DNA from: Cinclus cinclus
Taxonomy: Eukaryota; Chordata; Aves; Passeriformes; Cinclidae
DNA length: 64,000 nucleotides
Direction of reading: 5' to 3'
NCBI RefSeq assembly: GCF_963662255.1
Contig: NC_085046.1
Location: 54,716,570 to 54,780,569, forward strand
Numbering within the stretch: the first letter of the stretch is position 1; the number at the start of each line of letters is the position of its first letter. Made by a program: the position numbers and the translations under genes. The notes under the pieces were generated by a model, which saw only the letters and a program-made list of their open reading frames with translations, made no database searches and was not told the DNA's origin. Of the stretch, positions 1 to 64,000 are shown one piece after another.

Positions 1-315
1 CAAGGCAGCCAGGCGAGAGCAGTGACATCAGCGTGACATCAGCGGCCCACAAACCGCATGGGTGGCAACCTCAGTGAGCAAAGCATTGTGACCTCACATC
101 CCTCACTGCTTATGTTTGGGCACAGACAGAGCTGGGCTCAGACCGGCTCGCGCCTGCACTCCTGGCAAGCGTGCCTGCGAGGACTGGAAGCCCGCGAGGT
201 CCTTGGGAGCTGCTGTGGGCAAGTCTGGGTTGTGATTCCCACGCCTTTGCCTGTTTCCTTAGCCATACGTGGTTGAGGAAGCCAAGCAGTGTGAGCGGTG
301 CTTGCGGCGGCACAG
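1..315 (+). promoter_or_regulatory. Proximal promoter / 5' UTR of unit 1 (unit truncated by window edge)
   Basis: This is the right-hand end of a spacer whose TATA element lies outside the window. It holds two TGACATCA octamers 11 bp apart (23-30 and 34-41) and TGACCTCA (89-96), each one base from the CRE consensus. A pyrimidine-rich 3' splice site ends in AG at 261-262. It is followed by a probable 53-bp untranslated exon (263-315) that ends at the donor of the 148-bp intron. No open frame here looks like a gene. Confidence 0.5.
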
Positions 316-463
316 GTGAGCGGTGCAGGAAAGGACTACGGGGTGGCCGTGGGCTGGGCGATGGTGTCTGGGGAGCTGTGAGTGTGTGGTGTCCTTCTTG
401 AGGGGCCTGGGCGCTCCTTTGAGCCGCCCATCTCCCTGGGACAGCAAGTGACCTGTTTTGCAG
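316..463 (+). other. 5' UTR intron, unit 1
   Basis: A 148-bp GT-AG intron is predicted. The donor reads CACAG|GTGAGC. The acceptor is preceded by CCTGTTTTGC and reads AG|CGTG. It lies 59 bp upstream of the start codon. The length is the same in all 20 units. No transcript evidence is available here. Confidence 0.65.
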
Positions 464-522
464 CGTGTCACACCAGCAGGAGGGAGCAGCTGCTGTGCCC
501 AGCTCTGCTGCAAGCCACAAGC

Positions 523-1129
523 ATGGCCACGGAGACAGACTGGAACTGCCCCATCTGCCGTGACGGTCCCGGTGAAAAGGCTTCTGTAACACCGTGCGTC
601 CACCAGTTCTGCCTGGGCTGCATTGTGCGCTGGGTCAAGACCAAGCCATTGTGCCCCCTGTGCAGGCAGCCTATCAAGAGCATCGTTTACTCTGTTCGGT
701 CGGAGGAAGACTTTCTGGAGATAGCTCTCCCAAGCTCCTCAGACTCATGGGCTGCTGGTCACCAGGATGAGCAGGGGGCTGCGGAGCGCATGCCCAGCAC
801 CTATGTAGCTGGCTTCCCAGCTGAGCTCTGGGCTGGCATTTTCCAGGACTGCTCAGAAATCCTGGAGCCCCTGCTGCCCTGGCTGAACCAGGAGCTTTCG
901 CAGCTGCTCAGGACCCACTGGTGGGAGGTGGCTCTGGCACAGAGTGTGGTCGTAGCCAATTTGTGCTACTATGGGCTGAGGCAGGAGGCCTTGGTCCAGG
1001 AGCTGCAAGGCCTGCTGCAGGAGCAGACGGTGGCATTTGTGCGCCGGCTCATTGACACTGCTGCTGACAGGTGCAGTGATGAGATCCTGCGGCGGATGAA
1101 CCTCCTGAACTCCCATGCTCAGGAGGAAG

Positions 1130-1165
<36 letters not shown>

Positions 1166-1367
1166 AAGAGGAGGAGGGTCCCAAAGGCATCACTGCCTCC
1201 CTCCAGGGGACTCTCACCCCCATGGTGGCCTCCTCCCACAGCCCTATGGTCTCCAATGTGGAAGCAGACACTGGAACATTGGAAGCCACGCTGCGTGAGG
1301 GGCCCAGCCGCTCTCCATCCATGCCCGTCCATGCAGAGCGGGAGCAGCCCCAGGACGAGCCTGGCGA

Positions 1368-1403
<36 letters not shown>

Positions 1404-1590
1404 AGGCCCCTCTGCCCAAGGCTGCAGCCGCAGCCGTCGTGCTCCTGGCCGGGACACGGACAGCGTGCCCAAGGAGCGCCGGCGCCCCACAAAGAGGAAG
1501 GCCTCTAGACCTCAGGACTCTCCCCAGCCCCCAAAAAGGCCGTCCCGCCAGTGCAAGCCCAAGCCAAGGCCCCTTGATTGTAGGAAGTAG
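523..1590 (+). CDS. Topors-like RING-finger E3 ubiquitin ligase, copy 1 (355 aa)
   Basis: The RING is C3HC4 with ligands C9, C12, C25, H27, C30, C33, C44 and C47. R48, just after the last ligand, sits where E2-activating linchpin residues lie. The next segment (about 52-66, SIVYSVRSEEDF) resembles the region after the RING of TOPORS, a nuclear ubiquitin/SUMO ligase. Residues about 95-195 look helical, with many Leu and Trp. An acidic Glu-Gln tract starts at E201 with five Gln-Glu pairs, and ten alanines lie at 283-292. The tail from about 318 is basic and NLS-like (KRK, PKRP, KPKPR). The ATG at 523 was chosen because it directly precedes the RING and follows the predicted 3' splice site. A longer frame open from GTG 382 would cross the intron. 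Ligase activity and nuclear location are inferred from family; substrate is unknown. Markers: V38, R175, R305, R319, C344. Confidence 0.9.
1123..1176 (+). repeat. GAG/CAG hexanucleotide tract encoding the acidic Glu-Gln segment, unit 1
   Basis: GAG-CAG hexamers encode alternating Glu and Gln inside a Glu-rich run. Unit 1 has five Gln-Glu pairs. Other copies have two to five, always changing by 6 bp, so the frame is kept. Confidence 0.9.
1369..1398 (+). repeat. (GCA)10 trinucleotide tract encoding poly-Ala, unit 1
   Basis: Ten pure GCA codons lie between GAG and GGA. This is the shortest allele; other units carry up to 20 copies. The same site is the main source of unit-length variation. Confidence 0.95.
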
Positions 1591-1700
1591 GAGTAGATGT
1601 AGGAGTAAAGAATCAATGTTAGGAGTTGGAAATTGTTTTTAGAAGTAGGAAATAAATGGTAGAGTTAGGAAATCAATTGTAGAAGTAGGAAATAAATTGT
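1579..1700 (+). repeat. Degenerate ~20-bp tandem repeats in the 3' UTR, with poly(A) signals
   Basis: From the last codons onward the sequence is built of about six imperfect 19-21-bp repeats of the form TGTAGAAGTAGGAAATAAAT. Two of them contain AATAAA (1651-1656 and 1691-1696). The coding end (CRK) and the stop codon lie inside the first repeat, so this minisatellite supplies both the C-terminus and the poly(A) signals. Confidence 0.7.
1651..1696 (+). terminator. Paired poly(A) signals, unit 1
   Basis: AATAAA occurs at 1651-1656 and 1691-1696, 61 and 101 bp after the stop codon. A T-rich stretch (TTGTTGTTTCTCTG) follows the second. Equivalent pairs follow every gene, except that the first signal is AATCAA in units 6, 7, 9 and 11. 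Confidence 0.7.
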
Positions 1701-2383
1701 TGTTTCTCTGACACAGTCTCAGAGTGTGGCTTTCTCGGCCTTCTCCTGTTGCCTTTTCCCTCTGCCCTCAAATGCCAATGTGGGCGGCAACTGGGAGGGG
1801 AGGGGATAGGAACATTGTAGTCACAGGGGCCCAGAGGAGCCCTGGCAGGGGCCTGTGCCCAGTGCTACAGGAAGACAAGAAGCAGCCCCCAGGCAGGCCA
1901 AGCTTGGGACCCAGCCTGGGAGTCTGGAAAGCTTCCTGCTCTCAACTGCAGGGCAGGACAGGCCATGTTCATGGGGCATGAGCTGCAGGCAGCAAGCGAG
2001 CTAAAAGGGACAGAAGGAGCCCTCAGCTGGGGTCACAGTCAGTGCTGCAGAGGAAAGCAAAACTTCTCGGGATCCAGAGCCAATGTGGCCTGAGGGAAAG
2101 TTCCTTCTTGACCCCAGGGCTACTGATTGGCCGTGTTGAAAAGGGGCTCTGGAATGAAGGCAGCCAGTGGAAACACCGGTCGCCTTGGAGAACCACATGC
2201 CATCCTGCCTGTTCAGCAGAGTCAGCTGCACAGGACAACCCAGGGTCTGCCAGGCCAAGTGCCAGTGGCACAATAGGTAGAGTCTGCAAGGATGCTCCAG
2301 GAAGTCCCTGATGCAAAGAGATGGAGAGATGCTTCGTTGGTGTGGCTAGCTTTTAGCTGTCAGAATAAACCAAAACTCTTGTA

Positions 2384-2402
2384 GGGATCTTCAGAAGATC
2401 CC
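2384..2402. repeat. Perfect 19-bp palindrome, GGGATCTTC-A-GAAGATCCC
   Basis: Nine-base arms flank one central base. It lies 794 bp after the stop codon in 2,048-bp spacers (790 bp in 2,044-bp spacers) and is unchanged in every complete spacer. GAANNTTC-like symmetry could suit a dimeric DNA-binding protein. No function can be read from sequence. Confidence 0.8.
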
Positions 2403-3017
2403 GCCCTTCAAAATGACAATGGCCTGCACCGAGAGAGGGGCCGGCTTCCAGTTTGATGCCGCCCTGAGCACTGAAGGGGATGAGTGGAGGGAAAGAGCCA
2501 AGAGGAAGGATGGATTTGAACAAATCCACAGGATTCCTGCCAAGCCATTGAAGCCTAAGTGCAGATGTATCATTGGCCAAGGAAATGAGTGACTTGAGAT
2601 GGCGACAAGTCAGATGTGTACAGGCGAGAAACGCAAGCCCTCTATTTAAGGAGGGTTCCGAACAATCAAGAGAGCTTTTGTCACGTGGATCACCGAGGGT
2701 TGTGTGTCTGTCTCCAGCCAGGACCGCGGTTACCGTTCTACTCAACGACAGCAGAGATTTTCTCCCCGTTTTGGACCGTTTTTGGTTTGCCCAAAAGGGT
2801 GCTTGATGCTTCTTTTTCAGTTCTCTCTCCATCGTCAACTTGATGTTTCAATGGGATGAGGAGAGCAACAGTGTGTTGCAAGGGTCACTGAGCTAAGGAC
2901 CACACCATCGTGCCCGTCAACAGCGATCCAATGGGGCTGTGGAGAAGAAAAGAAATGGGAATAGAAAAGCAACCTGGCAAGAAGTTGATGCGGAGACTGG
3001 CAGGAGATGTCAGCATG

Positions 3018-3048
3018 TGCTCGCCTGTCCGAGTGGCGCAGGCGAGCA
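3018..3048. repeat. Inverted repeat, 10-bp arms (TGCTCGCCTG / CAGGCGAGCA), 11-base loop
   Basis: The arms are 3018-3027 and 3039-3048, GC-rich and perfect. It is present in every spacer about 160 bp upstream of the TATA-like element. It could form a hairpin or be a dimeric protein site. Confidence 0.7.
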
Positions 3049-3205
3049 GCACTGAGAATAGAGAAGAAGGGCTGTCATGTCACGGGATTTAAAGCAGCCA
3101 AGCCACGTGCCTGATGTACACAGAAGCCTCCCGTGCGAAAAGTGGGCAACTAGCAGGTAATGTGCTTCTAGAGGAGAAATGCTGGGACTGAGGTGGCCAA
3201 ATGAT

Positions 3206-3212
3206 TATAAAA
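3206..3212 (+). promoter_or_regulatory. TATA-like element upstream of gene 2
   Basis: TATAAAA lies in an AT-rich context 433 bp before the 5' UTR intron donor. It recurs unchanged before genes 3-20 at 6519, 9842, 13159, 16470, 19808, 23131, 26472, 29806, 33123, 36446, 39926, 43242, 46568, 49884, 53200, 56517, 59830 and 63146. A start site about 30 bp downstream would fit a first exon of about 100 bp. Confidence 0.45.
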
Positions 3213-3345
3213 TCCGAGGCAAGAAAGAGGGAATGATGGCATGGCCCACGTACCCCATGTTTTCTCCTGAGGCCGTGGACTTGCAGGGGCTAAAGGCCCG
3301 CTCTGGCAGATTTGGAAGGCAGTCAAGGCAGCCAGGCGAGAGCAG

Positions 3346-3419
3346 TGACATCAGCGTGACATCAGCGGCCCACAAACCGCATGGGTGGCAACCTCAGTGA
3401 GCAAAGCATTGTGACCTCA
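3346..3419 (+). promoter_or_regulatory. Cluster of CRE-like octamers upstream of gene 2
   Basis: TGACATCA occurs at 3346-3353 and 3357-3364, and TGACCTCA at 3412-3419. Each is one base from TGACGTCA. Equivalent clusters precede the other genes. If real, they would suggest CREB/CREM/ATF control. Position relative to the true start site is unknown. Confidence 0.3.
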
Positions 3420-3638
3420 CATCCCTCACTGCTTATGTTTGGGCACAGACAGAGCTGGGCTCAGACCGGCTCGCGCCTGCACTCCTGGCAAGCGTGCCTG
3501 CGAGGACTGGAAGCCCGCGAGGTCCTTGGGAGCTACTGTGGGCAAGTCTGGGTTGTGATTCCCACGCCTTTGCCTGTTTCCTTAGCCATACGTGGTTGAG
3601 GAAGCCAAGCAGTGTGAGCGGTGCTTGCGGCGGCACAG

Positions 3639-3786
3639 GTGAGCGGTGCAGGAAAGGACTACGGGGTGGCCGTGGGCTGGGCGATGGTGTCTGGGGAGCT
3701 GTGAGTGTGTGGTGTCCTTCTTGAGGGGCCTGGGCGCTCCTTTGAGCCGCCCATCTCCCTGGGACAGCAAGTGACCTGTTTTGCAG
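3639..3786 (+). other. 5' UTR intron, unit 2
   Basis: A 148-bp GT-AG intron with intact donor and acceptor. Confidence 0.65.
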
Positions 3787-3845
3787 CGTGTCACACCAGC
3801 AGGAGGGAGCAGCTGCTGTGCCCAGCTCTGCTGCAAGCCACAAGC

Positions 3846-4684
3846 ATGGCCACGGAGACAGACTGGAACTGCCCCATCTGCCGTGACGGTCCCGGTGAAA
3901 AGGCTTCTGTAACACCGTGCGTCCACCAGTTCTGCCTGGGCTGCATTGTGCGCTGGGCAAAGACCAAGCCATTGTGCCCCCTGTGCAGGCAGCCTATCAA
4001 GAGCATCGTTTACTCTGTTCGGTCGGAGGAAGACTTTCTGGAGATAGCTCTCCCAAGCTCCTCAGACTCATGGGCTGCTGGTCACCAGGATGAGCAGGGG
4101 GCTGCGGAGCGCATGCCCAGCACCTATGTAGCTGGCTTCCCAGCTGAGCTCTGGGCTGGCATTTTCCAGGACTGCTCAGAAATCCTGGAGCCCCTGCTGC
4201 CCTGGCTGAACCAGGAGCTTTCGCAGCTGCTCAGGACCCACTGGTGGGAGGTGGCTCTGGCACAGAGTGTGGTCGTAGCCAATTTGTGCTACTATGGGCT
4301 GAGGCAGGAGGCCTTGGTCCAGGAGCTGCAAGGCCTGCTGCAGGAGCAGACGGTGGCATTTGTGCGCTGGCTCATTGACACTGCTGCTGACAGGTGCAGT
4401 GATGAGATCCTGCGGCGGATGAACCTCCTGAACTCCCATGCTCAGGAGGAAGAGGAGCAGGAGCAGGAGCAGGAGCAGGAGGAAGAGGAGGAGGGTCCCA
4501 AAGGCATCACTGCCTCCCTCCAGGGGACTCTCACCCCCATGGTGGCCTCCTCCCACAGCCCTATGGTCTCCAATGTGGAAGCAGACACTGGAACATTGGA
4601 AGCCACGCTGCGTGAGGGGCCCAGCCGCTCTCCATCCATGCCCGTCCATGCAGAGCGGGAGCAGCCCCAGGACGAGCCTGGCGA

Positions 4685-4720
<36 letters not shown>

Positions 4721-4907
4721 AGGCCCCTCTGCCCAAGGCTGCAGCCGCAGCCGTCGTGCTCCTGGCCGGGACACGGACAGCGTGCCCAAGGAGCGCCGGC
4801 GCCCCACAAAGAGGAAGGCCTCTAGACCTCAGGACTCTCCCCAGCCCCCAAAAAGGCCGTCCCGCCAGTGCAAGCCCAAGCCAAGGCCCCTTGATTGTAG
4901 GAAGTAG
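3846..4907 (+). CDS. Topors-like RING-finger E3 ligase, copy 2 (353 aa)
   Basis: The protein has the architecture described for copy 1, with all eight zinc ligands. It differs at V38A (GTC to GCA, two adjacent bases) in the RING helix region and at R175W in the helical domain. The Glu-Gln tract has four pairs and the Ala tract ten residues. R305, R319 and C344 are as in copy 1. The coding sequence closely matches copy 4, 6,636 bp away. The spacer behind it is B-type, unlike that of copy 4. Confidence 0.9.
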
Positions 4908-6951
4908 GAGTAGATGTAGGAGTAAAGAATCAATGTTAGGAGTTGGAAATTGTTTTTAGAAGTAGGAAATAAATGGTAGAGTTAGGAAATCAATTGTAGA
5001 AGTAGGAAATAAATTGTTGTTTCTCTGACACAGTCTCAGAGTGTGGCTTTCTCGGCCTTCTCCTGTTGCCTTTTCCCTCTGCCCTCAAATGCCAATGTGG
5101 GCGGCAACTGGGAGGGGAGGGGATAGGAACATTGTAGCCACAGGGGCCCAGAGGAGCCCTGGCAGGGGCCTGTGCCCAGTGCTACAGGAAGACAAGAAGC
5201 AGCCCCCAGGCCAAGCTTGGGACCCAGCCTGGGAGTCTGGAAAGCTTCCTGCTCTCAACTGCAGGGCAGGACAGGCCATCTTCATGGGGCATGAGCTGCA
5301 GGCAGCAAGCGAGCTAAAAGGGACAGAAGGAGCCCTCAGCTGGGGTCACAGTCAGTGCTGCAGAGGAAAGCAAAACTTCTCGGGATCCAGAGCCAATGTG
5401 GCCTGAGGGAAAGTTCCTTCTTGACCCCAGGGCTACTGATTGGCCGTGTTGAAAAGGGGCTCTGGAATGAAGGCAGCCAGTGGAAACACCGGTCGCCTTG
5501 GAGAACCACATGCCATCCTGCCTGTTCAGCAGAGTCAGCTGCACAGGACAGCCCAGGGTCTGCCAGGCCAAGTGCCAGTGGCACAATAGGTAGAGTCTGC
5601 AAGGATGCTCCAGGAAGTCCCTGATGCAAAGAGATGGAGAGATGCTTCGTTGGTGTGGCTAGCTTTTAGCTGTCAGAATAAACCAAAACTCTTGTAGGGA
5701 TCTTCAGAAGATCCCGCCCTTCAAAATGACAATGGCCTGCACCGAGAGAGGGGCCGGCTCCTAGTTTGATGCCGCCCTGAGCACTGAAGGGGATGAGTGG
5801 AGGGAAAGAGCCAAGAGGAAGGATGGATTTGAACAAATCCACAGGATTCCTGCCAAGCCATTGAAGCCTAAGTGCAGATGTATCCTTGGCCAAGGAAATG
5901 AGTGACTTGAGATGGCAACAAGTCAGATGTGTACAGGCGAGAAACGCAAGCCCTCTATTTAAGGAGGGTTCCGAACAATCAAGAGAGCTTTTGTCACGTG
6001 GATCACCGAGGGTTGTGTGTCTGTCTCCAGCCAGGACCGCGGTTACCGTTCTACTCAACGACAGCAGAGATTTTCTCCCCGTTTTGGACCGTTTTTGGTT
6101 TGCCCAAAAGGGTGCTTGATGCTTCTTTTTCAGTTCTCTCTCCATCGTCAACTTGATGTTTCAATGGGATGAGGAGAGCAACAGCGGGTTGCAAGGGTCA
6201 CTGAGCTAAGGACCACACCATCGTGCCCGTCAACAGCGATCCAATGGGGCTGTGGAGAAGAAAAGAAATGGGAATTGAAAAGCAACCTGGCAAGAAGTTG
6301 ATGCGGAGACTGGCAGGAGATGTCAGCATGTGCTCGCCTGTCCGAGTGGCGCAGGCGAGCAGCACTGAGAATAGAGAAGAAGGGCTGTCATGTCACGGGA
6401 TTTAAAGCAGCCAAGCCACGTGCCGGATGTACACAGAAGCCTCCCGTGCCAAAAGTGGGCAACTAGCAGGTAATGTGCTTCTAGAGGAGAAATGCTGGGA
6501 CTGAGGTGGCCAAATGATTATAAAATCCGAGGCAAGAAAGAGGGAATGATGGCATGGCCCACGTACCCCATGTTTTCTCCTGAGGCCGTGGACTTGCAGG
6601 GGCTAAAGGCCCGCTCTGGCAGATTTGGAAGGCAGTCAAGGCAGCCAGGCGAGAGCAGTGACATCAGCGTGACATCAGCGGCCCACAAACCGCATGGGTG
6701 GCAACCTCAGTGAGCAAAGCATTGTGACCTCACATCCCTCACTGCTTATGTTTGGGCACAGACAGAGCTGGGCTCAGACCGGCTCGCGCCTGCACTCCTG
6801 GCAAGCGTGCCTGCGAGGACTGGAAGCCCGCGAGGTCCTTGGGAGCTGCTGTGGGCAAGTCTGGGTTGTGATTCCCACGCCTTTGCCTGTTTCCTTAGCC
6901 ATACGTGGTTGAGGAAGCCAAGCAGTGTGAGCGGTGCTTGCGGCGGCACAG
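4908..6951 (+). other. Spacer between genes 2 and 3 (2,044 bp)
   Basis: This is a B-type spacer with a single CAGG (CCCCCAGGCCAAGC near 5205), hence 4 bp shorter. It carries TAGCCACAGG, TATCCTTGG, ACAGCGGGTTGC and GGAATTGAAAAGC. Poly(A) signals lie at 4968 and 5008, and the TATA-like element at 6519. No gene seen. Confidence 0.7.
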
Positions 6952-7099
6952 GTGAGCGGTGCAGGAAAGGACTACGGGGTGGCCGTGGGCTGGGCGATGG
7001 TGTCTGGGGAGCTGTGAGTGTGTGGTGTCCTTCTTGAGGGGCCTGGGCGCTCCTTTGAGCCGCCCATCTCCCTGGGACAGCAAGTGACCTGTTTTGCAG
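6952..7099 (+). other. 5' UTR intron, unit 3
   Basis: A 148-bp GT-AG intron with intact splice signals. Confidence 0.65.
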
Positions 7100-7158
7100 C
7101 GTGTCACACCAGCAGGAGGGAGCAGCTGCTGTGCCCAGCTCTGCTGCAAGCCACAAGC

Positions 7159-7765
7159 ATGGCCACGGAGACAGACTGGAACTGCCCCATCTGCCGTGAC
7201 GGTCCCGGTGAAAAGGCTTCTGTAACACCGTGCGTCCACCAGTTCTGCCTGGGCTGCATTGTGCGCTGGGTCAAGACCAAGCCATTGTGCCCCCTGTGCA
7301 GGCAGCCTATCAAGAGCATCGTTTACTCTGTTCGGTCGGAGGAAGACTTTCTGGAGATAGCTCTCCCAAGCTCCTCAGACTCATGGGCTGCTGGTCACCA
7401 GGATGAGCAGGGGGCTGCGGAGCGCATGCCCAGCACCTATGTAGCTGGCTTCCCAGCTGAGCTCTGGGCTGGCATTTTCCAGGACTGCTCAGAAATCCTG
7501 GAGCCCCTGCTGCCCTGGCTGAACCAGGAGCTTTCGCAGCTGCTCAGGACCCACTGGTGGGAGGTGGCTCTGGCACAGAGTGTGGTCGTAGCCAATTTGT
7601 GCTACTATGGGCTGAGGCAGGAGGCCTTGGTCCAGGAGCTGCAAGGCCTGCTGCAGGAGCAGACGGTGGCATTTGTGCGCCGGCTCATTGACACTGCTGC
7701 TGACAGGTGCAGTGATGAGATCCTGCGGCGGATGAACCTCCTGAACTCCCATGCTCAGGAGGAAG

Positions 7766-7801
<36 letters not shown>

Positions 7802-8003
7802 AAGAGGAGGAGGGTCCCAAAGGCATCACTGCCTCCCTCCAGGGGACTCTCACCCCCATGGTGGCCTCCTCCCACAGCCCTATGGTCTCCAATGTGGAAG
7901 CAGACACTGGAACATTGGAAGCCACGCTGCGTGAGGGGCCCAGCCGCTCTCCATCCATGCCCGTCCATGCAGAGCGGGAGCAGCCCCAGGACGAGCCTGG
8001 CGA

Positions 8004-8039
<36 letters not shown>

Positions 8040-8226
8040 AGGCCCCTCTGCCCAAGGCTGCAGCCGCAGCCGTCGTGCTCCTGGCCGGGACACGGACAGC
8101 GTGCCCAAGGAGCGCCGGCGCCCCACAAAGAGGAAGGCCTCTAGACCTCAGGACTCTCCCCAGCCCCCAAAAAGGCCGTCCCGCCAGTGCAAGCCCAAGC
8201 CAAGGCCCCTTGATTGTAGGAAGTAG
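7159..8226 (+). CDS. Topors-like RING-finger E3 ligase, copy 3 (355 aa)
   Basis: The predicted protein appears identical to copy 1: V38, R175, five Gln-Glu pairs, ten alanines, R305, R319 and C344. Flanking DNA is also matched to unit 1, including the A-type spacer. Units 1-2 and 3-4 therefore look like one two-unit duplication. The RING ligands and the basic tail are intact. Confidence 0.9.
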
Positions 8227-10274
8227 GAGTAGATGTAGGAGTAAAGAATCAATGTTAGGAGTTGGAAATTGTTTTTAGAAGTAGGAAATAAATGGTAGAG
8301 TTAGGAAATCAATTGTAGAAGTAGGAAATAAATTGTTGTTTCTCTGACACAGTCTCAGAGTGTGGCTTTCTCGGCCTTCTCCTGTTGCCTTTTCCCTCTG
8401 CCCTCAAATGCCAATGTGGGCGGCAACTGGGAGGGGAGGGGATAGGAACATTGTAGTCACAGGGGCCCAGAGGAGCCCTGGCAGGGGCCTGTGCCCAGTG
8501 CTACAGGAAGACAAGAAGCAGCCCCCAGGCAGGCCAAGCTTGGGACCCAGCCTGGGAGTCTGGAAAGCTTCCTGCTCTCAACTGCAGGGCAGGACAGGCC
8601 ATGTTCATGGGGCATGAGCTGCAGGCAGCAAGCGAGCTAAAAGGGACAGAAGGAGCCCTCAGCTGGGGTCACAGTCAGTGCTGCAGAGGAAAGCAAAACT
8701 TCTCGGGATCCAGAGCCAATGTGGCCTGAGGGAAAGTTCCTTCTTGACCCCAGGGCTACTGATTGGCCGTGTTGAAAAGGGGCTCTGGAATGAAGGCAGC
8801 CAGTGGAAACACCGGTCGCCTTGGAGAACCACATGCCATCCTGCCTGTTCAGCAGAGTCAGCTGCACAGGACAACCCAGGGTCTGCCAGGCCAAGTGCCA
8901 GTGGCACAATAGGTAGAGTCTGCAAGGATGCTCCAGGAAGTCCCTGATGCAAAGAGATGGAGAGATGCTTCGTTGGTGTGGCTAGCTTTTAGCTGTCAGA
9001 ATAAACCAAAACTCTTGTAGGGATCTTCAGAAGATCCCGCCCTTCAAAATGACAATGGCCTGCACCGAGAGAGGGGCCGGCTTCCAGTTTGATGCCGCCC
9101 TGAGCACTGAAGGGGATGAGTGGAGGGAAAGAGCCAAGAGGAAGGATGGATTTGAACAAATCCACAGGATTCCTGCCAAGCCATTGAAGCCTAAGTGCAG
9201 ATGTATCATTGGCCAAGGAAATGAGTGACTTGAGATGGCGACAAGTCAGATGTGTACAGGCGAGAAACGCAAGCCCTCTATTTAAGGAGGGTTCCGAACA
9301 ATCAAGAGAGCTTTTGTCACGTGGATCACCGAGGGTTGTGTGTCTGTCTCCAGCCAGGACCGCGGTTACCGTTCTACTCAACGACAGCAGAGATTTTCTC
9401 CCCGTTTTGGACCGTTTTTGGTTTGCCCAAAAGGGTGCTTGATGCTTCTTTTTCAGTTCTCTCTCCATCGTCAACTTGATGTTTCAATGGGATGAGGAGA
9501 GCAACAGTGTGTTGCAAGGGTCACTGAGCTAAGGACCACACCATCGTGCCCGTCAACAGCGATCCAATGGGGCTGTGGAGAAGAAAAGAAATGGGAATAG
9601 AAAAGCAACCTGGCAAGAAGTTGATGCGGAGACTGGCAGGAGATGTCAGCATGTGCTCGCCTGTCCGAGTGGCGCAGGCGAGCAGCACTGAGAATAGAGA
9701 AGAAGGGCTGTCATGTCACGGGATTTAAAGCAGCCAAGCCACGTGCCTGATGTACACAGAAGCCTCCCGTGCGAAAAGTGGGCAACTAGCAGGTAATGTG
9801 CTTCTAGAGGAGAAATGCTGGGACTGAGGTGGCCAAATGATTATAAAATCCGAGGCAAGAAAGAGGGAATGATGGCATGGCCCACGTACCCCATGTTTTC
9901 TCCTGAGGCCGTGGACTTGCAGGGGCTAAAGGCCCGCTCTGGCAGATTTGGAAGGCAGTCAAGGCAGCCAGGCGAGAGCAGTGACATCAGCGTGACATCA
10001 GCGGCCCACAAACCGCATGGGTGGCAACCTCAGTGAGCAAAGCATTGTGACCTCACATCCCTCACTGCTTATGTTTGGGCACAGACAGAGCTGGGCTCAG
10101 ACCGGCTCGCGCCTGCACTCCTGGCAAGCGTGCCTGCGAGGACTGGAAGCCCGCGAGGTCCTTGGGAGCTACTGTGGGCAAGTCTGGGTTGTGATTCCCA
10201 CGCCTTTGCCTGTTTCCTTAGCCATACGTGGTTGAGGAAGCCAAGCAGTGTGAGCGGTGCTTGCGGCGGCACAG
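8227..10274 (+). other. Spacer between genes 3 and 4 (2,048 bp)
   Basis: This is an A-type spacer matching that of units 1/2 by eye. Poly(A) signals lie at 8287 and 8327, and the TATA-like element at 9842. No gene seen. Confidence 0.7.
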
Positions 10275-10422
10275 GTGAGCGGTGCAGGAAAGGACTACGG
10301 GGTGGCCGTGGGCTGGGCGATGGTGTCTGGGGAGCTGTGAGTGTGTGGTGTCCTTCTTGAGGGGCCTGGGCGCTCCTTTGAGCCGCCCATCTCCCTGGGA
10401 CAGCAAGTGACCTGTTTTGCAG
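10275..10422 (+). other. 5' UTR intron, unit 4
   Basis: A 148-bp GT-AG intron with intact splice signals. Confidence 0.65.
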
Positions 10423-10481
10423 CGTGTCACACCAGCAGGAGGGAGCAGCTGCTGTGCCCAGCTCTGCTGCAAGCCACAAGC

Positions 10482-11320: not shown

Positions 11321-11356
<36 letters not shown>

Positions 11357-38147: not shown

Positions 38148-40358
38148 GAGTAGATGTAGGAGTAAAGAATCAATGTTAGGAGTTGGAAATTGTTTTTAGA
38201 AGTAGGAAATAAATGGTAGAGTTAGGAAATCAATTGTAGAAGTAGGAAATAAATTGTTGTTTCTCTGACACAGTCTGAGAGTGTGGCTTTCTCGGCCTTC
38301 TCCTGTTGCCTTTTCCCTCTGCCCTCAAATGCCAATGTGGGCGGCAACTGGGAGGGGAGGGGATAGGAACATTGTAGCCACAGGGGCCCAGAGGAGCCCT
38401 GGCAGGGGCCTGTGCCCAGTGCTACAGGAAGACAAGAAGCAGCCCCCAGGCAGGCCAAGCTTGGGACCCAGCCTGGGAGTCTGGAAAGCTTCCTGCTCTC
38501 NNNNNNNNNNNNNNNNNNNNNNNNNNNNNNNNNNNNNNNNNNNNNNNNNNNNNNNNNNNNNNNNNNNNNNNNNNNNNNNNNNNNNNNNNNNNNNNNNNNN
38601 NNNNNNNNNNNNNNNNNNNNNNNNNNNNNNNNNNNNNNNNNNNNNNNNNNNNNNNNNNNNNNNNNNNNNNNNNNNNNNNNNNNNNNNNNNNNNNNNNNNN
38701 AGCTGCAGGCAGCAAGCGAGCTAAAAGGGACAGAAGGAGCCCTCAGCTGGGGTCACAGTCAGTGCTGCAGAGGAAAGCAAAACTTCTCGGGATCCAGAGC
38801 CAATGTGGCCTGAGGGAAAGTTCCTTCTTGACCCCAGGGCTACTGATTGGCCGTGTTGAAAAGGGGCTCTGGAATGAAGGCAGCCAGTGGAAACACCGGT
38901 CGCCTTGGAGAACCACATGCCATCCTGCCTGTTCAGCAGAGTCAGCTGCACAGGACAACCCAGGGTCTGCCAGGCCAAGTGCCAGTGGCACAATAGGTAG
39001 AGTCTGCAAGGATGCTCCAGGAAGTCCCTGATGCAAAGAGATGGAGACATGCTTCGTTGGTGTGGCTAGCTTTTAGCTGTCAGAATAAACCAAAACTCTT
39101 GTAGGGATCTTCAGAAGATCCCGCCCTTCAAAATGACAATGGCCTGCACCGAGAGAGGGGCCAGCTTCCAGTTTGATGCCGCCCTGAGCACTGAAGGGAA
39201 TGAGTGGAGGGAAAGAGCCAAGAGGAAGGATGGATTTGAACAAATCCACAGGATTCCTGCCAAGCCATTGAAGCCTAAGTGCAGATGTATCCTTGGCCAA
39301 GGAAATGAGTGACTTGAGATGGCAACAAGTCAGATGTGTACAGGCGAGAAACGCAAGGACTCTATTTAAGGAGGGTTCCGAACAATCAAGAGAGCTTTTG
39401 TCACGTGGATCACCGAGGGTTGTGTGTCTGTCTCCAGCCAGGACCGCGGTTACCGTTCTACTCAACGACAGCAGAGATTTTCTCCCCGTTTTGGACCGTT
39501 TTTGGTTTGCCCAAAAGGGTGCTTGATGCTTCTTTTTCAGTTCTCTCTCCATCGTCAACTTGATGTTTCAATGGGATGAGGAGAGCAACAGCGGGTTGCA
39601 AGGGTCACTGAGCTAAGGACCACACCATCGTGCCCGTCAACAGCGATCCAATGGGGCTGTGGAGAAGAAAAGAAATGGGAATTGAAAAGCAACCTGGCAA
39701 GAAGTTGATGCGGAGACTGGCAGGAGATGTCAGCATGTGCTCGCCTGTCCGAGTGGCGCAGGCGAGCAGCACTGAGAATAGAGAAGAAGGGCTGTCATGT
39801 CACGGGATTTAAAGCAGCCAAGCCACGTGCCTGATGTACACAGAAGCCTCCCGTGGCAAAAGTGGGAAACTAGCAGGTAATGTGCTTCTAGAGGAGAAAT
39901 GCTGGGACTGAGGTGGCCAAATGATTATAAAATCTGAGGCAAGAAATAGGGAATGATGGCATGGCCCACGTACCCCATGTTTTCTCCTGAGGCCGTGGAC
40001 TTGCAGGGGCTAAAGGCCCGCTCTGGCAGATTTGGAAGGCAGTCAAGGCAGCCAGGTGAGAGCAGTGACATCAGCGTGACATCAGCGGCCCACAAACCGC
40101 ATGGGTGGCAACCTCAGTGAGCAAAGCATTGTGACCTCACATCCCTCACTGCTTATGTTTGGGCACAGACAGAGCTGGGCTCAGACCGGCTCGCGCCTGG
40201 ACTCCTGGCAAGCGTGCCTGCGAGGACTGGAAGCCCGCGAGGTCCTTGGGAGCTGCTGTGGGCAAGTCTGGGTTGTGATTCCCACGCCTTTGCCTGTTTC
40301 CTTAGCCATACGTGGTTGAGGAAGCCAAGCAGTGTGAGCGGTGCTTGCGGCGGCACAG
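38148..40358 (+). other. Spacer between genes 12 and 13, containing the assembly gap
   Basis: Poly(A) signals lie at 38208 and 38248. CAGTCTGAGAG matches the spacer after gene 7. The 200-N gap breaks it. On the right it carries CGTGGCAAAAG and TCTGAGGCAAGAAATAGGG, and a CAGGTGAG at 40053-40060 where most units read CAGGCGAG. The TATA-like element is at 39926. No gene seen. Confidence 0.7.
38501..38700. other. Assembly gap (200 N)
   Basis: The left flank ends CTTCCTGCTCTC and the right begins AGCTGCAGGCAGC. In every other unit exactly 37 bp separate these. Replacing 200 N by 37 bp gives a spacer of 2,048 bp, one of only two lengths seen. The gap is therefore either 37 bp or 37 bp plus whole collapsed units. 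Open frames spanning it are artefacts. Confidence 0.95.
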
Positions 40359-50464: not shown

Positions 50465-50523
50465 CGTGTCACACCAGCAGGAGGGAGCAGCTGCTGTGCC
50501 CAGCTCTGCTGCAAGCCACAAGC

Positions 50524-51359: not shown

Positions 51360-51401
<42 letters not shown>

Positions 51402-53632: not shown

Positions 53633-53780
53633 GTGAGCGGTGCAGGAAAGGACTACGGGGTGGCCGTGGGCTGGGCGATGGTGTCTGGGGAGCTGTGAGT
53701 GTGTGGTGTCCTTCTTGAGGGGCCTGGGCGCTCCTTTGAGCCGCCCATCTCCCTGGGACAGCAAGTGACCTGTTTTGCAG
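53633..53780 (+). other. 5' UTR intron, unit 17
   Basis: A 148-bp GT-AG intron with intact signals, although the flank before it resembles that of unit 14, whose acceptor is broken. The acceptor loss in unit 14 is thus later than, or was not carried by, that exchange. Confidence 0.65.
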
Positions 53781-53839
53781 CGTGTCACACCAGCAGGAGG
53801 GAGCAGCTGCTGTGCCCAGCTCTGCTGCAAGCCACAAGC

Positions 53840-54675
53840 ATGGCCACGGAGACAGACTGGAACTGCCCCATCTGCCGTGACGGTCCCGGTGAAAAGGCTT
53901 CTGTAACACCGTGCGTCCACCAGTTCTGCCTGGGCTGCATTGTGCGCTGGGTCAAGACCAAGCCATTGTGCCCCCTGTGCAGGCAGCCTATCAAGAGCAT
54001 CGTTTACTCTGTTCGGTCGGAGGAAGACTTTCTGGAGATAGCTCTCCCAAGCTCCTCAGACTCATGGGCTGCTGGTCACCAGGATGAGCAGGGGGCTGCG
54101 GAGCGCATGCCCAGCACCTATGTAGCTGGCTTCCCAGCTGAGCTCTGGGCTGGCATTTTCCAGGACTGCTCAGAAATCCTGGAGCCCCTGCTGCCCTGGC
54201 TGAACCAGGAGCTTTCGCAGCTGCTCAGGACCCACTGGTGGGAGGTGGCTCTGGCACAGAGTGTGGTCGTAGCCAATTTGTGCTACTATGGGCTGAGGCA
54301 GGAGGCCTTGGTCCAGGAGCTGCAAGGCCTGCTGCAGGAGCAGACGGTGGCATTTGTGCGCCGGCTCATTGACACTGCTGCTGACAGGTGCAGTGATGAG
54401 ATCCTGCGGCGGATGAACCTCCTGAACTCCCATGCTCAGGAGGAAGAGGAGCAGGAGCAGGAGCAGGAGGAAGAGGAGGAGGGTCCCAAAGGCATCACTG
54501 CCTCCCTCCAGGGGACTCTCACCCCCATGGTGGCCTCCTCCCACAGCCCTATGGTCTCCAATGTGGAAGCAGACACTGGAACATTGGAAGCCACGCTGCG
54601 TGAGGGGCCCAGCCGCTCTCCATCCATGCCCGTCCATGCAGAGCGGGAGCAGCCCCAGGACGAGCCTGGCGAGGC

Positions 54676-54714
<39 letters not shown>

Positions 54715-54901
54715 AGGCCCCTCTGCCCAAGGCTGCAGCCGCAGCCGTCGTGCTCCTGGCCGGGACACGGACAGCGTGCCCAAGGAGCGCCGGCGCCCCA
54801 CAAAGAGGAAGGCCTCTAGACCTCAGGACTCTCCCCAGCCCCCAAAAAGGCCGTCCCGCCAGCGCAAGCCCAAGCCAAGGCCCCTTGATTGTAGGAAGTA
54901 G
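53840..54901 (+). CDS. Topors-like RING-finger E3 ligase, copy 17 (353 aa)
   Basis: The copy has V38, A137, R175, three Gln-Glu pairs, 12 alanines (first GCG), R305, R319 and R344. No private coding change was seen. RING ligands are intact. Confidence 0.9.
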
Positions 54902-56949: not shown

Positions 56950-57097
56950 GTGAGCGGTGCAGGAAAGGACTACGGGGTGGCCGTGGGCTGGGCGATGGTG
57001 TCTGGGGAGCTGTGAGTGTGTGGTGTCCTTCTTGAGGGGCCTGGGCGCTCCTTTGAGCCGCCCATCTCCCTGGGACAGCAAGTGACCTGTTTTGCAG
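56950..57097 (+). other. 5' UTR intron, unit 18
   Basis: A 148-bp GT-AG intron with intact splice signals. Confidence 0.65.
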
Positions 57098-57156
57098 CGT
57101 GTCACACCAGCAGGAGGGAGCAGCTGCTGTGCCCAGCTCTGCTGCAAGCCACAAGC

Positions 57157-57983
57157 ATGGCCACGGAGACAGACTGGAACTGCCCCATCTGCCGTGACGG
57201 TCCCGGTGAAAAGGCTTCTGTAACACCGTGCGTCCACCAGTTCTGCTTGGGCTGCATTGTGCGCTGGGTCAAGACCAAGCCATTGTGCCCCCTGTGCAGG
57301 CAGCCTATCAAGAGCATCGTTTACTCTGTTCGGTCGGAGGAAGACTTTCTGGAGATAGCTCTCCCAAGCTCCTCAGACTCATGGGCTGCTGGTCACCAGG
57401 ATGAGCAGGGGGCTGCGGAGCGCATGCCCAGCACCTATGTAGCTGGCTTCCCAGCTGAGCTCTGGGCTGGCATTTTCCAGGACTGCTCAGAAATCCTGGA
57501 GCCCCTGCTGCCCTGGCTGAACCAGGAGCTTTCGCAGCTGCTCAGGACCCACTGGTGGGAGGTGGCTCTGGCACAGAGTGTGGTCGTAGCCAATTTGTGC
57601 TACTATGGGCTGAGGCAGGAGGCCTTGGTCCAGGAGCTGCAAGGCCTGCTGCAGGAGCAGACGGTGGCATTTGTGCGCCGGCTCATTGACACTGCTGCTG
57701 ACAGGTGCAGTGATGAGATCCTGCGGCGGATGAACCTCCTGAACTCCCATGCTCAGGAGGAAGAGGAGCAGGAGCAGGAGGAAGAGGAGGAGGGTCCCAA
57801 AGGCATCACTGCCTCCCTCCAGGGGACTCTCACCCCCATGGTGGCCTCCTCCCACAGCCCTATGGTCTCCAATGTGGAAGCAGACACTGGAACATTGGAA
57901 GCCACGCTGCGTGAGGGGCCCAGCCGCTCTCCATCCATGCCCGTCCATGCAGAGCGGGAGCAGCCCCAGGACGAGCCTGGCGA

Positions 57984-58031
<48 letters not shown>

Positions 58032-58218
58032 AGGCCCCTCTGCCCAAGGCTGCAGCCGCAGCCGTCGTGCTCCTGGCCGGGACACGGACAGCGTGCCCAA
58101 GGAGCGCCGGCGCCCCACAAAGAGGAAGGCCTCTAGACCTCAGGACTCTCCCCAGCCCCCAAAAAGGCCGTCCCGCCAGCGCAAGCCCAAGCCAAGGCTC
58201 CTTGATTGTAGGAAGTAG
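57157..58218 (+). CDS. Topors-like RING-finger E3 ligase, copy 18 (353 aa)
   Basis: It has the shortest acidic tract, two Gln-Glu pairs, with 14 alanines (all GCA). It has V38, R175, R305, R319 and R344. P350L near the C-terminus is private, as is a silent CTG to TTG at L31. RING ligands are intact. Confidence 0.9.
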
Positions 58219-60262
58219 GAGTAGATGTAGGAGTAAAGAATCAATGTTAGGAGTTGGAAATTGTTTTTAGAAGTAGGAAATAAATGGTAGAGTTAGGAAA
58301 TCAATTGTAGAAGTAGGAAATAAATTGTTGTTTCTCTGACACAGTCTCAGAGTATGGCTTTCTCGGCCTTCTCCTGTTGCCTTTTCCCTCTGCCCTCAAA
58401 TGCCAATGTGGGCGGCAACTGGGAGGGGAGGGGATAGCAACATTGTAGCCACAGGGGCCCAGAGGAGCCCTGGCAGGGGCCTGTGCCCAGTGCTACAGGA
58501 AGACAAGAAGCAGCCCCCAGGCCAAGCTTGGGACCCAGCCTGGGAGTCTGGAAAGCTTCCTGCTCTCAACTGCAGGGCAGGACAGGCCATCTTCATGGGG
58601 CATGAGCTGCAGGCAGCAAGCGAGCTAAAAGGGACAGAAGGAGCCCTCAGCTGGGGTCACAGTCAGTGCTGCAGAGGAAAGCAAAACTTCTCGGGATCCA
58701 GAGCCAATGTGGCCTGAGGGAAAGTTCCTTCTTGACCCCAGGGCTACTGATTGGCCGTGTTGAAAAGGGGCTCTGGAATGAAGGCAGCCAGTGGAAACAC
58801 CGGTCGCCTTGGAGAACCACATGCCATCCTGCCTGATCAGCAGAGTCAGCTGCACAGGACAACCCAGGGTCTGCCAGGCCAAGTGCCAGTGGCACAATAG
58901 GTAGAGTCTGCAAGGATGCTCCAGGAAGTCCCTGATGCAAAGAGATGGAGAGATGCTTCGTTGGTGTGGCTAGCTTTTAGCTGTCAGAATAAACCAAAAC
59001 TCTTGTAGGGATCTTCAGAAGATCCCGCCCTTCAAAATGACAATGGCCTGCACCGAGAGAGGGGCCAGCTTCCAGTTTGATGCCGCCCTGAGCACTGAAG
59101 GGGATGAGTGGAGGGAAAGAGCCAAGAGGAAGGATGGATTTGAACAAATCCACAGGATTCCTGCCAAGCCATTGAAGCCTAAGTGCAGATGTATCCTTGG
59201 CCAAGGAAATGAGTGACTTGAGATGGCGACAAGTCAGATGTGTACAGGCGAGAAACGCAAGGCCTCTATTTAAGGAGGGTTCCGAACAATCAAGAGAGCT
59301 TTTGTCACGTGGATCACCGAGGGTTGTGTGTCTGTCTCCAGCCAGGACCGCGGTTACCGTTCTACTCAACGACAGCAGAGATTTTCTCCCCGTTTTGGAC
59401 CGTTTTTGGTTTGCCCAAAAGGGTGCTTGATGCTTCTTTTTCAGTTCTCTCTCCATCGTCAACTTGATGTTTCAATGGGATGAGGAGAGCAACAGCGGGT
59501 TGCAAGGGTCACTGAGCTAAGGACCACACCATCGTGCCCGTCAACAGCGATCCAATGGGGCTGTGGAGAAGAAAAGAAATGGGAATTGAAAAGCAACCTG
59601 GCAAGAAGTTGATGCGGAGACTGGCAGGAGATGTCAGCATGTGCTCGCCTGTCCGAGTGGCGCAGGCGAGCAGCACTGAGAATAGAGAAGAAGGGCTGTC
59701 ATGTCACGGGATTTAAAGCAGCCAAGCCACGTGCCGGATGTACACAGAAGCCTCCCGTGCCAAAAGTGGGAAACTAGCAGGTAATGTGCTTCTAGAGGAG
59801 AAATGCTGGGACTGAGGTGGCCAAATGATTATAAAATCCGAGGCAAGAAAGAGGGAATGATGGCATGGCCCACGTACCCCATGTTTTCTCTTGAGGCCGT
59901 GGACTTGCAGGGGCTAAAGGCCCGCTCTGGCAGATTTGGAAGGCAGTCAAGGCAGCCAGGCGAGAGCAGTGACATCAGCGTGACATCAGCGGCCCACAAA
60001 CCGCATGGGTGGCAACCTCAGTGAGCAAAGCATTGTGACCTCACATCCCTCACTGCTTATGTTTGGGCACAGACAGAGCTGGGCTCAGACCGGCTCGCGC
60101 CTGGACTCCTGGCAAGCGTGCCTGCGAGGACTGGAAGCCCGCGAGGTCCTTGGGAGCTGCTGTGGGCAAGTCTGGGTTGTGATTCCCACGCCTTTGCCTG
60201 TTTCCTTAGCCATACGTGGTTGAGGAAGCCAAGCAGTGTGAGCGGTGCTTGCGGCGGCACAG
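58219..60262 (+). other. Spacer between genes 18 and 19 (2,044 bp)
   Basis: It has a single CAGG, with AGAGTATGGC and GGATAGCAAC. Poly(A) signals lie at 58279 and 58319, and the TATA-like element at 59830. A private TTTTCTCTTGAGG occurs near 59884. No gene seen. Confidence 0.7.
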
Positions 60263-60410
60263 GTGAGCGGTGCAGGAAAGGACTACGGGGTGGCCGTGGG
60301 CTGGGCGATGGTGTCTGGGGAGCTGTGAGTGTGTGGTGTCCTTCTTGAGGGGCCTGGGCGCTCCTTTGAGCCGCCCATCTCCCTGGGACAGCAAGTGACC
60401 TGTTTTGCAG
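60263..60410 (+). other. 5' UTR intron, unit 19
   Basis: A 148-bp GT-AG intron with intact splice signals. Confidence 0.65.
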
Positions 60411-60469
60411 CGTGTCACACCAGCAGGAGGGAGCAGCTGCTGTGCCCAGCTCTGCTGCAAGCCACAAGC

Positions 60470-61305
60470 ATGGCCACGGAGACAGACTGGAACTGCCCCA
60501 TCTGCCGTGACGGTCCCGGTGAAAAGGCTTCTGTAACACCGTGCGTCCACCAGTTCTGCCTGGGCTGCATTGTGCGCTGGGTCAAGACCAAGCCATTGTG
60601 CCCCCTGTGCAGGCAGCCTATCAAGAGCATCGTTTACTCTGTTCGGTCGGAGGAAGACTTTCTGGAGATAGCTCTCCCAAGCTCCTCAGACTCATGGGCT
60701 GCTGGTCACCAGGATGAGCAGGGGGCTGCGGAGCGCATGCCCAGCACCTATGTAGCTGGCTTCCCAGCTGAGCTCTGGGCTGGCATTTTCCAGGACTGCT
60801 CAGAAATCCTGGAGCCCCTGCTGCCCTGGCTGAACCAGGAGCTTTCGCAGCTGCTCAGGACCCACTGGTGGGAGGTGGCTCTGGCACAGAGTGTGGTCGT
60901 AGCCAATTTGTGCTACTATGGGCTGAGGCAGGAGGCCTTGGTCCAGGAGCTGCAAGGCCTGCTGCAGGAGCAGACGGTGGCATTTGTGCGCCGGCTCATT
61001 GACACTGCTGCTGACAGGTGCAGTGATGAGATCCTGCGGCGGATGAACCTCCTGAACTCCCATGCTCAGGAGGAAGAGGAGCAGGAGCAGGAGCAGGAGG
61101 AAGAGGAGGAGGGTCCCAAAGGCATCACTGCCTCCCTCCAGGGGACTCTCACCCCCATGGTGGCCTCCTCCCACAGCCCTATGGTCTCCAATGTGGAAGC
61201 AGACACTGGAACATTGGAAGCCACGCTGCGTGAGGGGCCCAGCCGCTCTCCATCCATGCCCGTCCATGCAGAGCAGGAGCAGCCCCAGGACGAGCCTGGC
61301 GAGGC

Positions 61306-61347
<42 letters not shown>

Positions 61348-61534
61348 AGGCCCCTCTGCCCAAGGCTGCAGCCGCAGCCGTCGTGCTCCTGGCCGGGACA
61401 CGGACAGCGTGCCCAAGGAGCGCCGGCGCCCCACAAAGAGGAAGGCCTCTAGACCTCAGGACTCTCCCCAGCCCCCAAAAAGGCCGTCCCGCCAGCGCAA
61501 GCCCAAGCCAAGGCCCCTTGATTGTAGGAAGTAG
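60470..61534 (+). CDS. Topors-like RING-finger E3 ligase, copy 19 (354 aa)
   Basis: The copy has V38, R175, three Gln-Glu pairs, 13 alanines (first GCG), R305, R319 and R344. R273Q just before the Ala tract is private. RING ligands are intact. Confidence 0.9.
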
Positions 61535-63578
61535 GAGTAGATGTAGGAGTAAAGAATCAATGTTAGGAGTTGGAAATTGTTTTTAGAAGTAGGAAATAAA
61601 TGGTAGAGTTAGGAAATCAATTGTAGAAGTAGGAAATAAATTGTTGTTTCTCTGACACAGTCTCAGAGTGTGGCTTTCTCGGCCTTCTCCTGTTGCCTTT
61701 TCCCTCTGCCCTCAAATGCCAATGTGGGCGGCAACTGGGAGGGGAGGGGATAGGAACATTGTAGCCACAGGGGCCCAGAGGAGCCCTGGCAGGGGCCTGT
61801 GCCCAGTGCTACAGGAAGACAAGAAGCAGCCCCCAGGCCAAGCTTGAGACCCAGCCTGGGAGTCTGGAAAGCTTCCTGCTCTCAACTGCAGGGCAGGACA
61901 GGCCATCTTCATGGGGCATGAGCTGCAGGCAGCAAGCGAGCTAAAAGGGACAGAAGGAGCCCTCAGCTGGGGTCACAGTCAGTGCTGCAGAGGAAAGCAA
62001 AACTTCTCGGGATCCAGAGCCAATGTGGCCTGAGGGAAAGTTCCTTCTTGACCCCAGGGCTACTGATTGGCCGTGTTGAAAAGGGGCTCTGGAATGAAGG
62101 CAGCCAGTGGAAACACCGGTCGCCTTGGAGAACCACATGCCATCCTGCCTGATCAGCAGAGTCAGCTGCACAGGACAACCCAGGGTCTGCCAGGCCAAGT
62201 GCCAGTGGCACAATAGGTAGAGTCTGCAAGGATGCTCCAGGAAGTCCCTGATGCAAAGAGATGGAGACATGCTTCGTTGGTGTGGCTAGCTTTTAGCTGT
62301 CAGAATAAACCAAAACTCTTGTAGGGATCTTCAGAAGATCCCGCCCTTCAAAATGACAATGGCCTGCACCGAGAGAGGGGCCAGCTTCCAGTTTGATGCC
62401 GCCCTGAGCACTGAAGGGGATGAGTGGAGGGAAAGAGCCAAGAGGAAGGATGGATTTGAACAAATCCACAGGATTCCTGCCAAGCCATTGAAGCCTAAGT
62501 GCAGATGTATCCTTGGCCAAGGAAATGAGTGACTTGAGATGGCGACAAGTCAGATGTGTACAGGCGAGAAACGCAAGGCCTCTATTTAAGGAGGGTTCCG
62601 AACAATCAAGAGAGCTTTTGTCACGTGGATCACCGAGGGTTGTGTGTCTGTCTCCAGCCAGGACCGCGGTTACCGTTCTACTCAACGACAGCAGAGATTT
62701 TCTCCCCGTTTTGGACCGTTTTTGGTTTGCCCAAAAGGGTGCTTGATGCTTCTTTTTCAGTTCTCTCTCCATCGTCAACTTGATGTTTCAATGGGATGAG
62801 GAGAGCAACAGCGGGTTGCAAGGGTCACTGAGCTAAGGACCACACCATCGTGCCCGTCAACAGCGATCCAATGGGGCTGTGGAGAAGAAAAGAAATGGGA
62901 ATTGAAAAGCAACCTGGCAAGAAGTTGATGCGGAGACTGGCAGGAGATGTCAGCATGTGCTCGCCTGTCCGAGTGGCGCAGGCGAGCAGCACTGAGAATA
63001 GAGAAGAAGGGCTGTCATGTCACGGGATTTAAAGCAGCCAAGCCACGTGCCTGATGTACACAGAAGCCTCCCGTGCCAAAAGTGGGAAACTAGCAGGTAA
63101 TGTGCTTCTAGAGGAGAAATGCTGGGACTGAGGTGGCCAAATGATTATAAAATCTGAGGCAAGAAATAGGGAATGATGGCATGGCCCACGTACCCCATGT
63201 TTTCTCCTGAGGCCGTGTACTTGCAGGGGCTAAAGGCCCGCTCTGGCAGATTTGGAAGGCAGTCAAGGCAGCCAGGCGAGAGCAGTGACATCAGCGTGAC
63301 ATCAGCGGCCCACAAACCGCATGGGTGGCAACCTCAGTGAGCAAAGCATTGTGACCTCACATCCCTCACTGCTTATGTTTGGGCACAGACAGAGCTGGGC
63401 TCAGACCGGCTCGCGCCTGGACTCCTGGCAAGCGTGCCTGCGAGGACTGGAAGCCCGCGAGGTCCTTGGGAGCTGCTGTGGGCAAGTCTGGGTTGTGATT
63501 CCCACGCCTTTGCCTGTTTCCTTAGCCATACGTGGTTGAGGAAGCCAAGCAGTGTGAGCGGTGCTTGCGGCGGCACAG
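61535..63578 (+). other. Spacer between genes 19 and 20 (2,044 bp)
   Basis: It has a single CAGG. Poly(A) signals lie at 61595 and 61635, and the TATA-like element at 63146. Private CTTGAGACCC occurs near 61844 and GGCCGTGTACTTG near 63212. No gene seen. Confidence 0.7.
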
Positions 63579-63726
63579 GTGAGCGGTGCAGGAAAGGACT
63601 ACGGGGTGGCCGTGGGCTGGGCGATGGTGTCTGGGGAGCTGTGAGTGTGTGGTGTCCTTCTTGAGGGGCCTGGGCGCTCCTTTGAGCCGCCCATCTCCCT
63701 GGGACAGCAAGTGACCTGTTTTGCAG
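63579..63726 (+). other. 5' UTR intron, unit 20
   Basis: A 148-bp GT-AG intron with intact splice signals. Confidence 0.65.
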
Positions 63727-63785
63727 CGTGTCACACCAGCAGGAGGGAGCAGCTGCTGTGCCCAGCTCTGCTGCAAGCCACAAGC

Positions 63786-64000
63786 ATGGCCACGGAGACA
63801 GACTGGAACTGCCCCATCTGCCGTGACGGTCCCGGTGAAAAGGCTTCTGTAACACCGTGCGTCCACCAGTTCTGCCTGGGCTGCATTGTGCGCTGGGTCA
63901 AGACCAAGCCATTGTGCCCCCTGTGCAGGCAGCCTATCAAGAGCATCGTTTACTCTGTTCGGTCGGAGGAAGACTTTCTGGAGATAGCTCTCCCAAGCTC
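63786..64000 (+). CDS. Topors-like RING-finger E3 ligase, copy 20 (5' part, cut by window end)
   Basis: The first 71 codons and two bases of the next are present. They cover the complete RING (all eight ligands, V38) and the SVRSEEDF segment. The break is the window edge, not a mutation. Confidence 0.9.
   Translation, partial: MATETDWNCPICRDGPGEKASVTPCVHQFCLGCIVRWVKTKPLCPLCRQPIKSIVYSVRSEEDFLEIALPS

Follow-up and report, generated by a model that had tools for sequence, protein, structure and literature searches.

The 64,000-nucleotide stretch of DNA analysed here (the window), positions 54,716,570-54,780,569 of Cinclus cinclus contig NC_085046.1 (C1), lies inside a very large, real protein-coding macrosatellite. 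Its unit of ~3.32 kb carries a gene for a short, TOPORS-like RING protein. On balance, we consider it probable that the ~326 copies form a homogenised array that makes a nuclear TOPORS-derived ligase in bulk.

Within the window, exact matches to a start-codon anchor (n = 20) recur at spacings of 3311-3341 bp, except for a single spacing of 3480 bp that contains an assembly gap, and they delimit 19 complete head-to-tail units followed by 737 bp of a twentieth. Any two of the 19 full units differ by 0-31 substitutions per 3.3 kb (0-0.9%). One open reading frame (ORF) of 351-361 amino acids (aa) from its ATG is intact in 19 of 19 units, and these 19 are the only ORFs of at least 250 aa in a six-frame listing from which ORFs running off the ends were left out. 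An earlier, sequence-only reading of this DNA had proposed a tandem macrosatellite of ~3.3-kb units, with an intact gene in every complete unit, that continues past both window edges, and all of this is upheld by the anchors, the unit comparison and the array boundaries given below. Some of its details require amendment: its "at least 20 copies" are 19 complete units plus a piece, its 355-aa protein does occur but is merely one of several lengths, and the statement that every base belongs to the array overlooked the 200 Ns of the gap. These Ns account for the added length of unit 12, for which an extra insertion was considered and rejected, and they may conceal further units.

A 45-base start-codon probe was searched against the whole genome (1.17 Gb, 277 contigs) with up to 2 mismatches allowed, yielding 326 forward matches and 1 reverse match, while the reversed probe used as a control gave 0. 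All of the matches listed had zero mismatches and fell inside an array whose edges, from sampled stretches, lie at about C1:53,775,407 and 54,856,911, a length of ~1.08 Mb of which the window represents 6%. Two stretches read at slots without a listed match held typical units that carry a single difference from the probe, and such slots probably belong to the 326, the same number that results from dividing the length of the array by 3.32 kb. One spacing between probe matches, 3694 bp at C1:54,001,647-54,005,341, exceeds the unit length by ~380 bp and marks an insertion or a gap. The unit is thus longer than 1 kb and present in hundreds of head-to-tail copies, and its copies have the high identity of a macrosatellite, with a mean pairwise difference of 0.68% and a maximum of 1.30% among 35 full units (595 pairs).

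We regard it as very improbable that the copy number is inflated by misassembly, such that the true array is far shorter or haplotypes have been strung together. Near-identical repeats over 1.08 Mb are difficult to assemble, the array contains the 200-N gap, and unit 1 (1-3323) is identical to unit 3 (6637-9959), two repeats away; yet no other pair is identical among 35 units, between which differences reach 1.3%, the 44 intact copies specify 39 different proteins, and Ns are absent from nine 10-kb loci in or reaching into the array. Gaps, moreover, would more often hide copies than add them. A simple dimer misassembly was rejected on the grounds that units 2 and 4, which lie beside the identical pair, differ by 12 substitutions.

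Coding capacity is retained well beyond the window. The window together with 26 complete copies from elsewhere provided 45 complete copies, about one-seventh of the array, of which 44 end normally, at 349-361 aa. The sole broken copy has a premature stop at codon 268 (C1:53,935,390; position 7390 of locus L029). Differences in the length of the coding sequence (CDS) sit in GAG/CAG and GCA repeats and are always in frame, and what looked like a 16-bp insertion in the CDS of unit 17 was dismissed as an alignment artefact, the 353-aa CDS of that unit being in frame. All eight RING zinc ligands are kept in 45 of 45 copies, and none of the 114 best-scoring places in the genome, a sample that favours the best scorers, has an internal stop.

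Several lines of evidence point to the identity of the encoded protein. Pfam RING families scored above cut-off, the RING is of the TOPORS/ICP0 type, and at E values up to 1 only RING-type families matched, with no homeobox or USP family among them. The predicted fold combines the RING with a PWI-like domain; a PWI domain after the RING is a feature of TOPORS. Homologues named TOPRS or Topors-like are found across birds, with the window protein grouping with those of Rhabdornis and Oenanthe. Seven RING cysteines are invariant across 45 aligned homologue rows, and identity to the Rhabdornis protein is 94% in the RING, 85% in the PWI-like domain and 73% in the tail. Overall, the sequence-only reading was right to assign every unit a gene of RING ligase type (RING families, zinc ligands) and to suggest a bird genome (homologues), and besides the gap it missed the likeness to TOPORS and the ~1.08-Mb length of the array. 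TOPORS itself is a SUMO-targeted ubiquitin ligase, for which a published account places mutated residues of SUMO-interacting motifs (SIMs) at 391-910 (PMC11402782). Because intact copies of the unit protein end at 349-361 aa, and the long C-terminal SIM part is accordingly lacking, the gene is a shortened TOPORS-like gene rather than TOPORS itself; this concerns the long C-terminal part, no search aimed at SIM-like motifs having been made in the short tail. Its product, with zinc ligands intact, is a putative ubiquitin ligase.

These observations lend themselves to the following model. Between CDK13 and RALA, a gene derived from TOPORS would have been amplified head to tail to ~326 copies, which unequal crossing-over and gene conversion would keep alike. 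Each unit would have its own promoter, one or more small 5' introns and a poly(A) site. The product would act as a nuclear mini-TOPORS, in which the RING loads E2-ubiquitin and the PWI-like domain may hold a nucleic acid or protein target, and many copies transcribed together would supply a high dose within a narrow expression setting, with the germ line or early embryo the likeliest candidates. The promoter-like, intron and poly(A) signals that had been noted for every unit do recur, the intron donor motif matching exactly in all 35 full units and the acceptor motif in 32 of them, but their use is unproven and they are best described as putative. A TATA-like motif is retained at the left edge of the array and poly(A)-like motifs at the right edge, which suggests that amplification kept whole genes.

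The distribution of differences along the array is informative about how copies are kept alike. Neighbouring units are more similar (0.48% difference within 4 kb versus 0.77% beyond 500 kb; Spearman 0.39, the pairs not being independent), which is consistent with unequal exchange and conversion. In 2-kb bins across the window (gap bin aside), GC content ranges from 0.54 to 0.60, and in flanking loci from 0.35 to 0.41, except for L015 (0.46) and two array-edge loci. The CpG observed/expected ratio is 0.38 in the unit versus 0.07-0.09 in two flanks, and, per site, no change among units is more frequent than the CpG transition, a pattern that fits partial germline methylation. In addition, an intact, inverted orphan copy of 345 aa lies 0.62 Mb past the array (C1:55480001-55482000, L036) and would fit the single reverse probe match. 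Over 2042 bp it is 95.8% similar to unit 1; relative to the array majority it differs at 2 sites in codons 1-217 (plus a 3-base gap) and at 4.3% of the 3' region, while its 5' region and intron show 0 differences. The identical 5' part may reflect recent conversion.

A different view of the same array is that it is a satellite with a passenger ORF, spread by recombination alone, whose ORFs look intact only since the copies are young and homogenised and of which one, few or no copies matter. We consider this account unlikely. At a mean divergence of 0.68% few chance stops would arise (in the CDS of the 35 full units, 1.8 were expected and 0 seen), and over the whole CDS the ratio of nonsynonymous to synonymous variants (N:S) among array copies is at the neutral expectation, with simple pN/pS values of 1.09 (27 copies) and 1.25 (the window's 19). 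When expected counts were derived from the non-coding rates of the same 35 units, a set that does not include the copy with a stop, codons 1-217 had 8 nonsynonymous and 6 synonymous variants versus 24.6 and 9.7 expected, with 0 stops versus 1.4, while the tail had 20 and 4 versus 17.9 and 6.2. Among 44 copies, the counts were 11 N and 6 S in codons 1-217 and 26 N and 8 S in the tail. Coding and non-coding variable sites compared at p 0.06, and of all the selection measures on copies only the variant count for codons 1-217 departs clearly. This shortage of variants in the structured half argues against a passenger ORF, as do the bird-wide protein family with its invariant RING cysteines and the motifs kept at both array edges. 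Variation is low in the intron too, so that the deficit in codons 1-217 could have a regional cause, and the evidence that copies are under selection is suggestive rather than decisive.

Recognisable genes lie on either side of the array. On its left, ORFs on the opposite strand in loci L012, L014 and L015 belong to what we take to be CDK13 (a part of CDK13 matched L014 at 64%, E 2e-24); on its right, exons in L019 and L020 match RALA at 88-98%. Some 8 kb separate the array from the start of the putative CDK13, and about 9 kb from the end of the RALA coding sequence. The 5' end of the putative CDK13 faces the array, which could affect the CDK13 promoter region. There is no need to invoke a germline-restricted chromosome, a location that was also entertained, as the array sits within a contig of 152 Mb with the putative CDK13 on one side and RALA on the other.

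When a divergent songbird relative served as query, 224 matches were obtained, array copies included, and among the matches listed at least 18 were diverged TOPORS-like paralogues on a second contig, C42, dispersed over 3.0-38.5 Mb on both strands (e.g. L035, L037); 7 of the 18 listed have internal stops. C42 is 85.4 Mb long and is placed after contigs falling to 0.74 Mb. Judging by this length and its position among the contigs, it is probably the Z chromosome; an assignment to W was dropped, as 85 Mb and the order fit Z better, with neither proved. These paralogues raise the possibility that the array is a conflict gene, that is, a dosage-acting germ-line driver or suppressor in an arms race with the dispersed, in part broken, copies on C42. 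The number and decay of these paralogues, the size and order of C42 as expected for a Z listed after the autosomes, and the fast protein change relative to Rhabdornis would all suit such a role, but C42 is not proved to be Z, and the contig order is not strictly by size, with small contigs also interspersed among large ones and following C1; we give this explanation only a slim chance. A broader proposal is that germline conflict with dispersed Z paralogues gave rise to an autosomal, megabase-sized, dosage-acting ligase array in songbirds and drives its turnover, which would make it the avian equivalent of conflict systems based on ampliconic sex chromosomes; this is likewise improbable in our estimation.

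Table 1. Coordinates of array units, putative signals and coding sequences in the window.
Feature	Position	Strand	Remarks
Array section	1..64000	+	unit starts 1, 3324, 6637, 9960, 13277, 16588, 19926, 23249, 26590, 29924, 33241, 36564, 40044, 43360, 46686, 50002, 53318, 56635, 59948, 63264
Putative intron, unit 1 5' region	317..463	+	GT...AG, recurs across units; predicted from sequence
Two AATAAA poly(A)-type signals, unit 1	1651..1696 (1651, 1691)	+	
Candidate TATA box for unit 2 gene	3206..3212	+	TATAAAA
Assembly gap, 200 N	38501..38700	.	within unit 12; versus next unit, 37 bp and an unknown count of whole units missing
CDS unit 1, 355 aa	523..1590	+	RING 1-62; predicted PWI-like domain ~91-217; acidic/Ala-repeat disordered tail; basic C-terminus
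CDS unit 2, 353 aa	3846..4907	+	
CDS unit 3, 355 aa	7159..8226	+	whole unit identical to unit 1
CDS unit 4, 353 aa	10482..11543	+	
CDS unit 5, 351 aa	13799..14854	+	
CDS unit 6, 360 aa	17110..18192	+	
CDS unit 7, 355 aa	20448..21515	+	
CDS unit 8, 361 aa	23771..24856	+	
CDS unit 9, 360 aa	27112..28194	+	
CDS unit 10, 353 aa	30446..31507	+	
CDS unit 11, 355 aa	33763..34830	+	
CDS unit 12, 353 aa	37086..38147	+	
CDS unit 13, 354 aa	40566..41630	+	
CDS unit 14, 356 aa	43882..44952	+	
CDS unit 15, 354 aa	47208..48272	+	
CDS unit 16, 354 aa	50524..51588	+	
CDS unit 17, 353 aa	53840..54901	+	
CDS unit 18, 353 aa	57157..58218	+	
CDS unit 19, 354 aa	60470..61534	+	
CDS unit 20, start only	63786..64000	+	truncated by window edge

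No prior report of this array, or of any bird TOPORS array, was found in the open-licence literature searched; a structural-variant table for crows contains a single macrosatellite row, given without sequence and thus a conceivable but unproven relative of the present array (PMC7341801). Arrays of this kind probably collapse in short-read assemblies, and studies of gene counts or copy number in birds may miss them. With ~326 near-identical and mostly intact ubiquitin ligase-type gene copies, the array is large, and it provides a testable system for the homogenisation, silencing and dosage use of such arrays. To our knowledge, few protein-coding macrosatellites have been described, the best studied being mammalian.

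Comparison with known systems helps to define what is shared and what is particular to this array. Relative to TOPORS, the bird protein has the same RING type, a putative PWI-like helical domain after the RING and homologues with TOPRS or Topors-like names, but at ~355 aa it is without the long C-terminal part, and its gene is tandemly amplified. Among solved structures, the closest to it in sequence is the RING of an equine herpesvirus (1chc), and Foldseek E values with models of alphaherpesvirus ICP0 reach down to 2e-14, but whole-length TM-scores are low (~0.2), indicating a likeness of type, with descent not shown. HINTW and the chicken Z amplicon are multicopy sex-linked bird genes that likewise exist in many near-identical copies, whereas the present array is on a 152-Mb autosome-like contig. 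Protein-coding genes of birds also occur in other tandem arrangements of megabase scale that resist assembly, from which this array differs in consisting of near-identical 3.3-kb repeats (0.68% mean difference) of one RING gene. The mammalian protein-coding macrosatellites D4Z4/DUX4 and RS447/USP17 are long arrays of few-kb units, set head to tail and each with an ORF, and the structural likeness to them that the sequence-only reading had drawn is supported by the few-kb units, head-to-tail order and ORF in each unit of the bird array. Unlike them, the array repeats a TOPORS-like RING gene rather than a homeobox or ubiquitin protease gene, has a bird host, and gathers ~326 copies in one place.

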